Assembly (NCBI RefSeq): GCF_003207825.1 | Contig: NZ_NKTY01000001.1 | Span: forward strand, 124,001 to 188,000 | Source: Komagataeibacter saccharivorans | GTDB lineage: Bacteria > Pseudomonadota > Alphaproteobacteria > Acetobacterales > Acetobacteraceae | DNA length: 64,000 nt | Direction: 5' to 3' | Shown: positions 1,655 through 44,449 of the stretch, piece by piece | How positions within the stretch are numbered: the first letter of the stretch is position 1 | Layout: each line of letters starts with the position of its first letter | The notes under the pieces: generated by a model | Seen by the model: the letters and a program-made list of their open reading frames with translations, nothing else | Told to the model about the DNA's origin: nothing | Database searches by the model: none | Program-made: the position numbers and the translations under genes

Positions 1655-3030
1655 CACGAGGAGACCCGCGCATCCCGCGCCACCGGCATGTCACCGACCT
1701 GCTGCGCCAGCCGGAGCAGACCGCCCGCGGTCAGTCCGCCCCCATCGGGCAGGATCGTGTCGGGCGGGCAGCGGCGCACCAGTGCGATCATCTGCTCGCG
1801 CAGCCTGCGCGCCTGCGCCCGCCCACCGGCTTCTTCCAGCAGGCGGGCGAGGTAGCAATGCGCCATGACATGGTTGCGGCACAGATAGATGACCCGGCGG
1901 AACGATTCTTCCGCCTGCAGGCAGGAACCTTCGCCCCATGCCAGCACGGCGAACAGGAAGTGAATGCTGGCATCGACGGGATTGCGCGCCAGATAGTCAC
2001 GGCACATCTGCATGCCGCGCCGGACATGGCCGCTATCGGCCACACGCCTGATCTCGGCGGCGATGCCGGCGCTGTCCACGCTTTGTGCGGGCGGCGCGTC
2101 ATACACCGGCCTGCGCCGGGGGACGGCGGGAGGCGCTGGCGGCATCGGGGCCGGTTCACACGCTGGCGGCACGCGGAAAGCCAGCGTGCCGGGCAGGCGC
2201 ACGGTTTCAAGAAGCGGCGCGAAATCGCATAGCGGTTCGGAATGCCCCTGCAGAAGCCAGCCTTCGGGCGCAAGCCGACCGGCCATGGCTTTTACCAGGG
2301 CCGCCACCTGCGCCTGTTCAAAATAGATCAGCACATTGCGGCACAGGATCAGATCGAAGGGACCGGCAGGCCCGCAATCGGGCTGCAGCAGGTCAAGGAT
2401 GTTGCTGTAGCGGAAGCGGACCATGCGGCGGTAACGCTCATGCAGCCGCCATGTGCGCGGGGTTACGGGGGTAAACCAGCCCTGACGCCGGGCGGGGGGA
2501 ATGTCGCGCAGGGTCCATGCACTGAATTCCGCCTGCCGGGCCTGTTCCAGCGCACGGCTGCTTATGTCGGTGCCAAGGATCTCGATATGCCAGTCGCATG
2601 GCTCCATCCCCGCTTCTTCCAGAAGGCGGGTCAGCAGGATGGCGATGGAATAGGGTTCCGCCCCGTTGGAGCAGCCGACACTCCATATCCGCAGATGGCG
2701 GGTTGCGGCAGCCCTGCGGATCAGTTGTGGCAGGATGGTATGTTCAAGCGCCTGAAACTGCTCGGCATAACGGAAGAAGAATGTTTCCCCGATCGTGATG
2801 GCGGATTCCAGTTCCTGCCATTCGGCATCCCCGCGCGCACCATCGGACAGGAGCGCGAGATAGTCATGACACGTGGCACAGCCATGCAGAAGCATACGCG
2901 CGCCCACCGCCTGTTTCAGCAGGTCGGTCTTGTCCACGTAGTAATGCAGCCCGGTGCGCTGGGTCACGGCACTGACCAGCCGCCGGAAACCCGCAGGCGG
3001 AAAGGCCACCGATCCGGTCATGGCCTGCAT
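1654..3030 (-). CDS. CheR-type protein-glutamate methyltransferase with C-terminal TPR-like region (WspC-like)
   Basis: SAM-dependent methyltransferase that methylates glutamates of the receptor's signalling domain. 458 residues, against about 280 for simple CheR. The all-alpha N-terminal domain covers roughly 10-80. The methyltransferase domain shows the SAM motif LRIWSVGCSNGAEPYSIAI, EILGTDIS and FDLILCRNVLIYF. After a Pro-rich linker (about 290-320) come helical repeats around 330-430 (DASIHFLFAVLAWGEG, AHCYLARLLEEAGG) that look like tetratricopeptides. CheR-TPR is the WspC architecture of alternative chemosensory systems. It overlaps both neighbouring CheW genes, so the three are coupled. 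Confidence 0.9.
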   Translation of the reverse strand: MQAMTGSVAFPPAGFRRLVSAVTQRTGLHYYVDKTDLLKQAVGARMLLHGCATCHDYLALLSDGARGDAEWQELESAITIGETFFFRYAEQFQALEHTILPQLIRRAAATRHLRIWSVGCSNGAEPYSIAILLTRLLEEAGMEPCDWHIEILGTDISSRALEQARQAEFSAWTLRDIPPARRQGWFTPVTPRTWRLHERYRRMVRFRYSNILDLLQPDCGPAGPFDLILCRNVLIYFEQAQVAALVKAMAGRLAPEGWLLQGHSEPLCDFAPLLETVRLPGTLAFRVPPACEPAPMPPAPPAVPRRRPVYDAPPAQSVDSAGIAAEIRRVADSGHVRRGMQMCRDYLARNPVDASIHFLFAVLAWGEGSCLQAEESFRRVIYLCRNHVMAHCYLARLLEEAGGRAQARRLREQMIALVRRCPPDTILPDGGGLTAGGLLRLAQQVGDMPVARDARVSS

Positions 3031-39171: not shown

Positions 39172-39630
39172 TCAGGCCGAAAGCTGCGCGCGCACGACAG
39201 CACTTGCGCGCGACGGGTCAAAGGCCGCGCCAAACTGTTCCTTCAGCGCCGCCATGACCTTGCCCATATCCTTCATGGAGGTGGCGTCCGTGCGGCCGAT
39301 GGCCTCACGGACCGCGGCCTCGATCGTGGCGTCATCCAGATCGGCGGGCAGGTATTCACGGATGATGGCGATTTCCGCCTCTTCCTTTTCCGCCAGTTCG
39401 GGGCGGCCACCCTTGATGTACAGCGCCGCCGACTCCGTCCGCGACTTGACCATGCCACGCAGCATGGAAATCACGGCGTCGTCGCTGACCTCGTCATCCC
39501 CCTTGGCGCGCCCCGCGATATCGACATCCTTCAGCTTCGCGGTGATCATGCGGATCGTGCCGACCTTTCCGCTCTGGCCTGCCTTCATGGCTGTTTTCAG
39601 GTCATCCTTGAAACGTGCGCGCAGGGACAT
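39172..39630 (-). CDS. GatB/YqeY domain protein
   Basis: 152 residues. The family is related to the tail of the GatB amidotransferase and probably acts on or binds tRNA; no exact role known. Signature: LRARFKDDLKTAMKAGQSGK, TIRMITAKLKDVDIAGR, EKEEAEIAIIREYLPADLDD, KDMGKVMAALKEQFG. First gene of yqeY-dnaG-rpoD, divergent from carA with a 153-bp shared region that contains two palindromes. Confidence 0.93.
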   Translation of the reverse strand: MSLRARFKDDLKTAMKAGQSGKVGTIRMITAKLKDVDIAGRAKGDDEVSDDAVISMLRGMVKSRTESAALYIKGGRPELAEKEEAEIAIIREYLPADLDDATIEAAVREAIGRTDATSMKDMGKVMAALKEQFGAAFDPSRASAVVRAQLSA

Positions 39631-39681: not shown

Positions 39682-39696
39682 GGGAATAATTTTCCC
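39682..39696. repeat. Palindrome GGGAA-N5-TTCCC, copy 1
   Basis: GGGAATAATTTTCCC, in the yqeY-carA divergent region, 88 bp before the carA ATG. The arms are exact 5-bp inverted repeats. A second element of the same form starts 38 bp downstream. Likely a dimer-binding operator; the protein is unknown. Confidence 0.6.
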
Positions 39697-39719
39697 ACCG
39701 TCCTGTTGCGGCGATATGT

Positions 39720-39734
39720 GGGAATTTTCTTCCC
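39720..39734. repeat. Palindrome GGGAA-N5-TTCCC, copy 2
   Basis: GGGAATTTTCTTCCC, same arms and spacer length as copy 1, 50 bp before the carA ATG. Centre-to-centre distance to copy 1 is 38 bp. Either copy could overlap a promoter for carA or yqeY. Confidence 0.6.
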
Positions 39735-39783
39735 AATCGCGCAGGACGCTGTTAGGCAATACTCCCGGAAGGGACATCATCCA

Positions 39784-41181
39784 ATGCCGATGACGATAGA
39801 AAGTATTATCGAACGCCTTGGCGGCGCCGAACAGGCGGCAAAGCTGACCGGTGTCAGCACCGAGGCCATTCGCAAATGGCGACAGGCCCGCGCCATACCG
39901 CCCAAGCACTGGACAACCGTGCTGCGCGCGACGGGCCTGTCACTGTCCGACCTGCAACCCGATACAGAATCCGACCGACCGGAGCCCCCGATGAGCACGC
40001 CAAACCCGCCCGCACCGGCCGACAGGCCCAAAGCCGCGACAGCAGCCCTGATTCTGGCCGATGGCACCGTCCTGTGGGGGCGTGGTTTCGGTGCGCATGG
40101 CACGGATGCCGCCATTGGCGAGATCTGCTTTTCCACCGGCATGACCGGCTATCAGGAAACCCTGACCGATCCGTCCTTCGCAGGGCAGATCATCACCTTC
40201 ACCTTCCCCCATATCGGCAACACCGGCGCCACCGCCGAAGATGATGAAGCCGATGTCGTGCGTGCCCGCGCGCTGGTGGTGAAGGAGGACCTGACCGCCC
40301 CGGCCAACTGGCGCGCGACCGAGTCGCTGGATGCGTGGCTCAGGACACGCGGCATTCCGGGCATCTGCGGTGTCGATACCCGCGCGATCACCCGCCGCAT
40401 CCGTGAAGGTGGACCGCAGACGGCGGTTGTCGCCTACCCCGCCGACGGAAAGTTCGACCTGCCAGCCCTGCAGGCCCGCGCCCGCCAGTGGCCGGGGCTG
40501 GAAGGCATGGACCTTGCACGCGAAGTCACCTGCGCCAGCCCCTATGCCTGGAGCGAGGGCGTATGGCACTGGCCCCACGGCACCGATCCCCTGCCCGAAA
40601 AGCGCCGCAAGGTGGTGGCGGTCGATTATGGCGCCAAGCGCAACATCCTGCGCTGCCTTGCATCCGCCGGGTGTGACGTGACCGTCGTACCCGCCACCGC
40701 CACGGCGGAAGAAATCCTTGCCCTCAACCCCGATGGGGTTTTCCTGTCCAACGGACCGGGTGACCCGGCGGCGACGGCGGCCTATGCGGTTCCGGCCATC
40801 CGGGGCGTGCTGGAGGCGGGCAAGCCGCTGTTCGGCATCTGCCTTGGCCACCAGCTTCTGGCCCTGACCCTTGGGGCCAGCACATACAAGCTGGCGCGCG
40901 GCCACCGTGGCGCCAACCAGCCGGTCAAGGATCTGGCGACGGGGCGCGTGGAAATCACCAGCCAGAACCACGGTTTCGCAGTGGATGAAAAATCCCTGCC
41001 AGCCGATGTGCGGGCCACCCATGTCAGCCTGTTCGACGGATCGAATGAAGGGATCGCCACCAGCCGCTATCCCGCCTTCTCGGTGCAGTATCACCCCGAA
41101 GCCAGCCCCGGCCCGTCCGACAGCCATTACCTGTTCCGTCGTTTTGTCGATCTGATCGACACCACAACCAAGACCGCGTGA
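39784..41181 (+). CDS. carA: Carbamoyl-phosphate synthase small subunit with N-terminal HTH domain
   Basis: Glutaminase subunit that supplies ammonia to CarB for carbamoyl phosphate (pyrimidines and arginine). 465 residues, about 69 more than the canonical start. Residues 1-60 form a Cro/YdaS-like helix-turn-helix: [37 protein letters not shown] linker leads to the CarA core ([20 protein letters not shown]). Class I amidotransferase triad: Cys in [12 protein letters not shown], His and Glu in [13 protein letters not shown] 39784 has GGAAGGGA upstream. ATG 39991, at the usual CarA start, has its own GGAG six bases upstream, so two products are possible. carB follows 13 bp later. Confidence 0.93.
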
Positions 41182-41194
41182 AAGCCGACCCGAC

Positions 41195-44100
41195 ATGCCA
41201 AAACGGACAGACATCAGCTCCATCCTGATTATCGGCGCCGGCCCGATCGTTATCGGTCAGGCGTGCGAATTCGACTATTCCGGCGCACAGGCCTGCAAGG
41301 CGCTGCGTGAGGAAGGGTACCGCGTCATTCTGGTCAACTCCAATCCCGCCACGATCATGACCGATCCGGGGCTGGCGGATGCGACCTATATCGAACCGAT
41401 CACCCCGGAATTCGTCGAACGCATCATCCTGCGTGAAAAACCCGACGCCATCCTGCCCACCATGGGCGGCCAGACCGCGCTGAACACGGCGATGGCGCTG
41501 GACAAGTCGGGCTTCCTCAAAAAGCACAATGTCGAACTGATCGGCGCCAATGCCGAAGTGATCGACCGTGCCGAGGACCGGCAGAAATTCCGCGAGGCGA
41601 TGGACGAAATCGGCATCGAAAGCCCGCGCAGCCTGATCGCCCACACGCTGGACGAAGCGCGTTCGGCGCTGGAAAGCGTGGGCCTGCCCGCCGTCATCCG
41701 GCCGTCCTTCACCATGGGCGGTTCCGGCGGCGGCATCGCCTACAACAAGGAGGAGTTCGACCGCATCGTCTCCTCCGGTCTCGACGCCTCGCCCACCACG
41801 GAAGTCCTGATCGAGGAATCCGTGCTGGGCTGGAAAGAGTACGAGATGGAAGTCGTACGCGACACGGCGGATAACTGCATCATCATCTGCTCGATCGAAA
41901 ACATCGACCCGATGGGCGTGCATACCGGCGACTCCATCACCGTAGCCCCTGCCCTGACGCTGACGGACAAGGAATACCAGCGCCTGCGCGATGCGTCGCT
42001 TGCCTGCCTGCGCAAGATCGGCGTGGAAACCGGCGGGTCGAACGTGCAGTTCGGCATCAATCCCGTCGATGGCCGCGTGGTGGTGATCGAGATGAATCCG
42101 CGCGTGTCGCGTTCGTCCGCCCTTGCATCCAAGGCGACGGGCTTCCCCATCGCCAAGGTCGCGGCCAAGCTTGCGGTCGGCTACACGCTGGATGAACTGA
42201 CCAACGACATCACCGGCAGCACGCCCGCATCGTTCGAGCCGACGATTGACTACGTCGTGGTCAAGATCCCCCGCTTCACGTTCGAGAAGTTCCCCGGCAC
42301 CCCTGCCCTGCTGTCCACCAGCATGAAGTCGGTTGGCGAGGCGATGGCCATTGGCCGCTCCTTCCCCGAGGCCCTGCAGAAGGGCCTGCGTTCGATGGAA
42401 ATCGGGCTGGCGGGTCTGGACCCGGTCGAAGTGCCGGGCGATGGCGGTGCCGATGCATTCCGTGCCGCGCTGTCACAGCCCCGGCCGGAGCGTATCCTGA
42501 TGACGGCGCAGGCGCTGCGCGCAGGGCTGAGTGTCGAGGACATTCACGACGCCTGCCGCTTCGAGCCGTGGTTCCTGCGCGAAATCGCGAAAATCGTCGA
42601 AGCCGAGCACCGAGTGGTGCGCGACGGCCTGCCCGAAGATGCGGACAGCCTGCGCGCGCTCAAGGCGATGGGCTTCTCCGACATCCAGCTTGCCCGCCTG
42701 TCCGGCACGCAGGAAACGGAAGTGGCGAAGCTGCGCGAAAGCCGTGGCGTGACCCCGGTCTACAAGCGCATCGACACCTGCGCGGGTGAGTTCGCATCGC
42801 CCACGCCGTATATGTATTCCTCCTACGAAGGTGGATACGGCGTGCCGGAATGTGAAAGCCGCCCCACGGACCGCAAGAAGATCGTCATCCTTGGTGGCGG
42901 CCCGAACCGGATCGGACAGGGGATCGAATTCGACTACTGCTGCGTCCATGCCGCCTACGCCCTGCGCGAAGCCGGTTTCGAGACCATCATGGTCAACTGC
43001 AACCCGGAAACCGTCTCGACCGATTACGATACCTCCGACCGGCTGTATTTCGAGCCGCTGACGGCGGAAGACGTCATCGCCCTGATCCGGCGCGAACAGG
43101 AAAACGGTACCGTTCTGGGCTGCATCGTGCAGTATGGCGGCCAGACGCCGCTCAAGCTGTCGCGCGCGCTGGAAGCCGCAGGCATCCCGCTGCTGGGCAC
43201 GCCCGCGGACGCGATCGACCGTGCAGAAGACCGTGAACGCTTCCAGGCCATGCTGCACAGGCTGGGCCTGCGCCAGCCTGCCAACGGCATCGCGCGCAGC
43301 CCGACGGAAGCCGAAGCGGTGGCCGAGAAGATCGGCTACCCCGTGGTGGTCCGCCCGTCCTACGTTCTGGGTGGGCGCGCGATGGAAATCGTGCATGACC
43401 GCGCGAGCCTGCAGCGTTACATGCGCGTGGCGCTACAGCTTGCCGGTGCGGAAGTGGCCAACGGCCCCGTGCTGATCGACCATTACCTGAACGATGCGAT
43501 CGAGGCGGATGTGGACTGCATCGCCGATGGCAACGAGGTCTACGTCGCGGGCGTCATGGAACATATCGAGGAAGCCGGCATCCATTCCGGTGACAGCGCA
43601 TGTTCGCTCCCGCCCTATACCCTGTCACCCGCCATCGTGACCGAACTGAAAAGCCAGACCGAAGCCATGGCCCGCGAGCTTGGCATTGTTGGCCTCATGA
43701 ACGTTCAGTACGCGATCAAGGGACAGGAAATCTTCGTGCTGGAAGTCAACCCGCGCGCCTCGCGCACCGTGCCGTTCGTGGCCAAGGCCACCGGGGTTCC
43801 GGTCGCCAAGATCGGCGCGCGTGTCATGGCGGGTGCGAAGCTGGGTGAATTCCGCCTTGATGACCGTGCCGTCGCCCCGCATGTGGCGGTGAAGGAAGCG
43901 GTGTTCCCCTTCAACCGCTTCCCGGACGTGGATACGATCCTTGGCCCGGAAATGCGCTCCACGGGTGAAGTGATGGGCCTCGACGCATCGTTCGAGCGCG
44001 CATTCGCCAAGTCACAGCTTGCCGCTGGCGTGAAGCTGCCCCTGTCGGGTGCGGTGTTCCTGTCGGTGCGCGACAGTGACAAGGCTGCGGTGAAATCCAT

Positions 44101-44449
44101 CGGCCGCCTGCTGTCGGACATGGGCTTCCGCATCGTGGCGACACGCGGCACGGCAAAGTGCCTGCGTGAAGCGGGCGTAAGCGTGGATGTGGTGAACAAG
44201 GTGCTTGAGGGCCGCCCGAACTGTGTGGACGCCATCCGTTCGGGTGATATCCAGATGGTCATCAACACGGCGCAGGGCGCGCAGGCCGTGACCGACAGTT
44301 TCGATATCCGCCGTTCCGCGCTGACGCATGGCGTTCCCCACTACACCACCATCGCGGGCGCACGGGCGGCAACGCATGCGATTTCTGCGATGCGTGAGGG
44401 GGTTCTTGAAGTCGCGCCCCTTCAATCCTATTTTAAAGGATCATTCTGA
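41195..44449 (+). CDS. carB: Carbamoyl-phosphate synthase large subunit
   Basis: 1084 residues with the internal duplication of two ATP-grasp halves: first carboxyphosphate domain ([20 protein letters not shown], ... [20 protein letters not shown]), oligomerisation domain, then the carbamate domain ([40 protein letters not shown]). The C-terminal MGS-like allosteric domain (about 940-1084; [20 protein letters not shown]-like) binds UMP/IMP/ornithine in relatives. Paired with carA. Confidence 0.98.

Follow-up and report, generated by a model that had tools for sequence, protein, structure and literature searches.

A Cro-like domain on the carbamoyl-phosphate synthase small subunit of Acetobacteraceae and its predicted operator at the carAB promoter

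Introduction

Carbamoyl phosphate is common to arginine and pyrimidine synthesis, and the balancing of both pathways is a classic question of regulation. Several enzymes carry a DNA-binding domain of their own and act as autogenous enzyme-repressors, including PutA, BirA and NadR. The Cro proteins of phages are small dimeric repressors that act on palindromes. Here, a gene of Komagataeibacter saccharivorans is described in which a Cro-like helix-turn-helix (HTH) domain is joined in frame to CarA, the small subunit of carbamoyl-phosphate synthase (CPSase), and whose predicted promoter is overlaid by palindromes that this domain probably recognizes. The gene lies in a 64-kb stretch of DNA, referred to below as the window, which spans positions 124001-188000 of a 390-kb contig in a 3.35-Mb genome.

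The carAB operon of Escherichia coli is controlled in trans by ArgR, PurR, RutR, IHF, PepA (a trigger enzyme) and PyrH, according to the part of PMC6245113 that was available, in which the term "autoregulat" is absent. These are separate regulators, whereas in HTH-CarA the DNA-binding domain is carried by CPSase itself. HTH-CarA resembles trigger enzymes such as PepA at E. coli carAB in that an enzyme would likewise control transcription of its pathway, and the sequence side of this likeness is supported. In sequence and fold the domain is related to phage Cro (N15 Cro, 6on0 and 2hin; Xfaso 1 Cro, 3bd1; P22 Cro, 1rzs). Unlike phage Cro, its Cro-like unit is joined to an enzyme, and the predicted target is the promoter of that enzyme. 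The domain is also a full-length member of the carph-isopro proteins (NF046037), well above the cut-off. That entry comes as a name without a stated function; the predicted operator, its placement on the promoter and the covariation described here are new. Searches of an open PubMed Central library, in which most subscription journals are missing, turned up no account of the fusion, the operator or the function of the domain.

A Cro-like domain fused to CarA

An earlier note on this DNA had proposed that an HTH is fused in phase to CarA and that residues 1-60 form a Cro/YdaS-like domain translated from ATG 39784. The fusion is borne out, since HTH, linker and CarA occupy a single open frame:

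39784..41181, plus strand: HTH-CarA, 465 codons (amino acids) in a single open frame; glutamine-hydrolysing CPSase small subunit with an N-terminal HTH
39796..39957, plus strand: HTH domain, residues 5-58; recognition helix at residues 26-35, including Q34
39958..40035, plus strand: flexible linker rich in Pro and Ala; predicted local distance difference test score (pLDDT) below 50 for residues 60-76 in the full-length model
40042..41160, plus strand: CarA catalytic part, matched by TIGR01368

The first 73 residues score 67.9 bits against NCBIfam NF046037 (cut-off 38; 62.5 bits for the whole protein), 33.5 bits against Pfam YdaS_toxin (29.1 in the whole-protein scan; threshold 30) and 29.8 bits against Pfam P22_Cro, whose gathering threshold is 30.2. 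AlphaFold2 folds residues 1-62 into five helices (mean pLDDT 89.1; predicted template modelling score 0.70) and places the recognition helix at residues 26-35. A profile search of solved structures leads to the Cro proteins 5w8y (2e-4), 3bd1 (3.5e-4) and 2hin (1.2e-3), and the top rows of Foldseek are again Cro proteins at probability 1.00, headed by N15 Cro on operator DNA (6on0, E 9.3e-3). Structure prediction and profiles therefore both agree with the earlier assignment, which a non-HTH fold had been named as refuting; the fold predicted is that of an HTH.

The 62-residue HTH query is 95-98% identical to its counterparts in 13 Komagataeibacter loci, the nearest named relatives. Comparison of the first 58 codons with each of these loci reveals 8-11 synonymous and 0-2 non-synonymous codon differences. 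Because the changes are dominated by synonymous ones, the HTH stretch is judged to be translated and under selection at the protein level, which supports translation from ATG 39784. Residues K31, W32, P39 and H42 are invariant, and the recognition helix is strongly conserved as protein.

The enzymatic moiety is equally recognizable. Its TIGR01368 score is 452.3 bits against a cut-off of 307.35, and C353, H437 and E439, which we take to be the Cys-His-Glu catalytic triad of CarA, are invariant among 31 aligned proteins; the CarA part therefore looks active. HTH and CarA share one frame in 125 of 126 distinct family loci (the exception is L102), and none of the 126 has a stop codon between them. 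Two HTH-carA loci, L022 and L102, have broken frames that are possibly sequence errors.

Tandem palindromes upstream of carA

Two palindromes precede the gene, and they are the only exact copies of GGGAA-N5-TTCCC within the window:

39682..39696, no strand: distal operator (predicted), GGGAA-N5-TTCCC, GGGAATAATTTTCCC
39720..39734, no strand: proximal operator (predicted), GGGAA-N5-TTCCC, GGGAATTTTCTTCCC, 38 bp from the distal one

Both are unchanged in the 13 Komagataeibacter loci, where the flanking bases vary; positions 39706-39719 between them vary freely, and the -10/leader stretch is again unchanged. Across the family, GGGAA-N5-TTCCC is exact in 106 of 126 distinct loci and present with at most one mismatch in 119, where shuffled sequences would give 1.06 loci. 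Rearranging the half-site letters into nine other orders yields matches in 0-1 of the 126 loci each. The remaining seven loci carry a variant, mostly CGGAA-N5-TTCCG. In a larger set of 214 distinct HTH-carA loci, from which L107, L180 and identical loci were dropped, the shared core GGAA-N5-TTCC is found within 220 bp upstream in every locus with at most one mismatch and exactly in 209 (shuffle expectations 15.1 and 0.4, respectively), while the control stretch from -440 to -220 contains it in 23. The exact G form is present in 168 of these loci and the exact C form in 23. A pair of sites with a spacing of 33-55 bp is present in 100 of 111 clusters, and the spacing peaks at 38-40 bp. This conserved tandem palindrome, a predicted operator of HTH-carA loci, is new here.

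The sites appear to be dedicated to carA. The window's genome contains GGGAA-N5-TTCCC at eight places, two of them at carA, and the backward control at six. The other six sites are unpaired; five fall within long open reading frames (ORFs), and C99:121251 separates two ORFs. A regulon beyond carA in this genome was rejected, and the six sites are treated as chance occurrences, without proof. The extended form TGGGAA-N5-TTCCCA occurs ten times in the genomes of eight relatives, eight times at carA, and its reversed control not at all; three of these genomes lack the extended form altogether.

Covariation of the domain and its predicted operator

Domain and palindrome are absent together. The exact core is missing from every HTH-less carA locus compared: 29 from other families and three from this one, of which L064 and L065 belong to one genus and L180 to another. 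Both L064 and L065 still keep the divergent yqeY gene.

Variation within the palindrome points to the same partner. Among 439 whole-protein columns in 203 rows, residue 34 of the recognition helix shares the most mutual information with the outer base pair of the operator, and two others from this region, residues 36 and 25, come 4th and 10th (rows tied in operator class and rows with short proteins were dropped here and in the tree analysis). Loci with Q34 carry only the G form in 170 of 191 cases and only the C form in 7, and 19 of 23 non-Q34 loci carry only the C form. With one sequence for each of the 111 clusters, the C form is found in 9 of 10 non-Q34 clusters (one tie) vs 4 of 101 with Q34 (Fisher 2e-10, kinship ignored). 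On the tree, residue 34 changes four times and the operator form seven times. The operator form thus appears to follow the recognition helix at residue 34, which supports the HTH as reader of the palindromes.

Promoter architecture

In the window, the proximal operator overlaps the predicted promoter of carAB:

39730..39735, plus strand: predicted -35, TTCCCA, inside the right arm of the proximal operator; consensus of 32 leader-bearing clusters
39750..39758, plus strand: predicted extended -10, TGTTAGGCA, 17 bp past the -35; consensus of 32 clusters, identical in the 13 Komagataeibacter loci

This arrangement typifies one of two main classes, with 32 clusters including the window, in which the right arm TTCCCA of the proximal site is the likely -35, TGnTA follows 17 bp on and a leader comes next. 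The other class comprises 64 short-gap clusters whose start codon lies 12-16 nt past the site. Here, TTG occupies -7 to -5 in 57 clusters and TA occupies +16/+17 of the site in 45, giving a sigma-70-like predicted promoter whose 17-bp spacer contains the operator. The available part of one report describes the promoters of Gluconobacter oxydans as lax, with the motif ttGnnn/Tatnnn (PMC5756330). In both classes, a bound protein would sit on the carAB promoter. Since the start codon follows the predicted -10 by only 6-7 nt in 57 of the 64 short-gap clusters, their mRNAs, and hence the first start in many relatives, look leaderless; 118 of 212 loci have no Shine-Dalgarno sequence ahead of the HTH start.

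Two translation starts

The earlier note had pointed to two credible starts, each with its own Shine-Dalgarno sequence, and both sequences are confirmed in the window:

39767..39774, plus strand: Shine-Dalgarno-like GGAAGGGA of the HTH-CarA start, upstream of ATG 39784; unchanged in the Komagataeibacter loci
39981..39984, plus strand: internal Shine-Dalgarno GGAG, 6 nt before ATG 39991
39991..41181, plus strand: predicted plain CarA from the internal ATG, suggested by the recurrence of a linker ATG with Shine-Dalgarno

The internal ATG sits where the HTH-less CarA of relatives begins. After loci with an odd linker frame or length were dropped, 80 linker ATGs were counted against 14.1 expected, an approximately sixfold excess, and 71 of 111 clusters have at least one. 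A Shine-Dalgarno sequence of at least 4 nt precedes the linker ATG in 50 of these 71 clusters; in the controls the share is 14-17% (258 of 1850 other codons of the linker, 51 of 300 ATGs within CarA). It occurs in all three frames (29, 12 and 9), an argument for selection acting on the DNA and not on the peptide. A second start is therefore supported as a recurrent though not universal feature, and the earlier claim stands to that extent.

Distribution of the fusion

The carph-isopro domain is above the cut-off in 113 of 120 sampled Acetobacteraceae genomes, and its fusion to CarA is confirmed in 110, among them Komagataeibacter, Acetobacter and Rhodopila. The three that drop out are a prophage Cro (G116), a genome left out (G098) and a locus without CarA on its contig (L107); HTH and CarA stand together in 110 of the 111 family loci retrieved. 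With wider sampling, 370 of 397 family genomes had an HTH match. Of those without a match in the 120-genome draw, G019, G039 and G110 show no carA above the cut-off and G026 is broken by a contig end, leaving G029 as the sole clear absence; HTH-less carA was found in the same way in G116 and G508. The G508 locus (L180/L340) belongs to a 1.7-Mb genome that has lost the HTH and the exact operators, and yqeY was not found next to carA; the other rows seen from its genus carry HTH-CarA.

Across the class, the domain is above the cut-off in 73 of 385 genomes, and in the other sampled families it is carried by hosts other than CarA. None of 29 non-family domain loci encodes CarA within reach of the domain, and none of 29 carA loci from other families has an HTH match; the fusion is therefore a trait confined to this one family, within the sampled genomes. 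Six non-CarA hosts were scanned. In five of them (L034, L036, L041, L046 and L047, from 1501 onward), the domain starts mitofilin (Mic60)-like membrane proteins (Pfam PF09731), and in the sixth (L059, 1501-3177) a YjeF-type NAD(P)H-hydrate epimerase/dehydratase, a repair enzyme. The earlier note had correctly named the domain carph-isopro; the isopropylmalate enzyme that it mentioned as a host is not among these six.

In G116, a stand-alone HTH above the carph-isopro cut-off (L339, approximately 2075-2212, minus strand) was considered as a detached carA domain and rejected. The translations read there show a Cro-like gene in divergent orientation to a CI-like one, with a DNA-methylase-like gene adjoining, and it is therefore regarded as an ordinary gene of a probable prophage. 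Its presence hints that the carph-isopro domain may be derived from phages.

Neighbouring genes

The gene is flanked by the following:

41195..44449, plus strand: large subunit, carB-like, directly 3' of carA; identified by reading the translation
39172..39630, minus strand: yqeY-like gene, divergent from carA; kept there in 100 of 111 family clusters

The palindromes were also considered as an element of yqeY. This was rejected because yqeY adjoins HTH-less carA in 24 of 29 loci from other families, as well as in L064 and L065, all without the sites.

Proposed mechanism and alternative explanations

HTH-CarA is very likely a CPSase subunit that also represses its own carAB operon, as may be inferred from the position of HTH-matched sites at the promoter of the same gene. 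In the proposed mechanism, the Cro-like N-terminal domain, tethered by the flexible linker, would bind as a dimer to GGGAA-N5-TTCCC. Usually two such palindromes lie approximately 38-40 bp apart, the proximal one covering the core promoter of carAB, within the -35/-10 spacer in many relatives and on the -35 in the window. Bound HTH-CarA would block RNA polymerase, and the second start, with its own Shine-Dalgarno sequence, would yield CarA minus the HTH, supplying enzyme without repressor. Binding, repression, the two protein forms and any metabolite signal are what we infer. The earlier suggestion of an enzyme with its own repressor is thus supported indirectly, through the conserved tandem operator on the promoter, its co-occurrence with the HTH, the joint absence of both in HTH-less family members and the covariation with the recognition helix.

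A further and far more speculative step is that CPSase senses the state it is in, whether of assembly or allosteric, and relays this to its own promoter. Ornithine, IMP (inosine monophosphate) and UMP (uridine monophosphate) shift the oligomerisation of CPSase. The four HTHs of a tetramer of heterodimers could occupy the four half-sites, with CPSase ligands setting repression and plain CarA diluting the HTHs. In many relatives, translation of the repressor form would then begin without a leader and that of plain CarA with a Shine-Dalgarno sequence; if true, two modes of initiation would operate within one gene.

Several observations weigh against autorepression by HTH-CarA as drawn here. A spacing of 38-40 bp does not set the paired sites a whole number of helical turns apart, a consensus scanner called no sigma-70 promoter in this stretch of the window, and Foldseek gave no match at E <= 0.001 (best 9.3e-3). 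The core with one mismatch is present by chance in one of the 29 HTH-less controls and twice at the HTH-less L180. Independent pairs on the tree number two (supported branches) or four (all) and mostly or always agree, but they are too few for p < 0.05, leaving the covariation short of significance there. L138 pairs S34 with a G-form operator, a clear exception, L009 (T34) has mixed forms, and seven Q34 loci carry the C form only. Finally, 40 of 111 clusters are without a linker ATG.

The palindromes might instead be bound by another regulator, for example one of pyrimidine or arginine synthesis, with the HTH on CarA doing something else or nothing. Such a protein might have arisen in the same family, and the co-loss of HTH and sites rests on few lineages (two genera); this reading is nevertheless unlikely, as a foreign regulator does not predict residue 34 as the top column for operator form, and sites nearly confined to carA would be unusual for a pathway regulator. 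That HTH-CarA activates transcription, or toggles between activation and repression in a MerR-like manner from the spacer, finds an argument in the 57 of 64 short-gap clusters whose site lies between the predicted -35 and -10. MerR promoters have a lengthened spacer, however, whereas the one here is an ordinary 17 bp, and the window's class has its site over the -35 instead, making an activator decidedly improbable.

A non-regulatory HTH that merely stabilises or localises the protein, with the upstream ATG rarely used and plain CarA the real product, would fit the occurrence of the same domain on mitofilin-like proteins, at whose loci no operator was seen, exact GGGAA-N5-TTCCC occurring in one of 29 and there 932 bp downstream. 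Given how strongly the recognition helix is conserved as protein, and given the evidence for the operator, such a tag is very improbable indeed. The internal ATG and its Shine-Dalgarno sequence could, on the other hand, be disused relics of the carA start that preceded the fusion, in keeping with their position at the beginning of HTH-less CarA and with the loss of the ATG in the 40 clusters noted above. This has some plausibility but is not favoured: the excess of ATGs is found in fast-changing linkers, and Shine-Dalgarno sequences in three frames indicate selection on DNA.

Significance

The predicted operator would assign a function to a domain that has so far only been named. The change of Q34 to S, A or H with that of G to C would represent a natural specificity switch and a model for the joint change of a Cro-like helix and its site. 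Both Komagataeibacter and Acetobacter also serve as production organisms, of cellulose and vinegar, and the large bacterial family to which they belong appears to have built the regulator of carAB into the enzyme itself.
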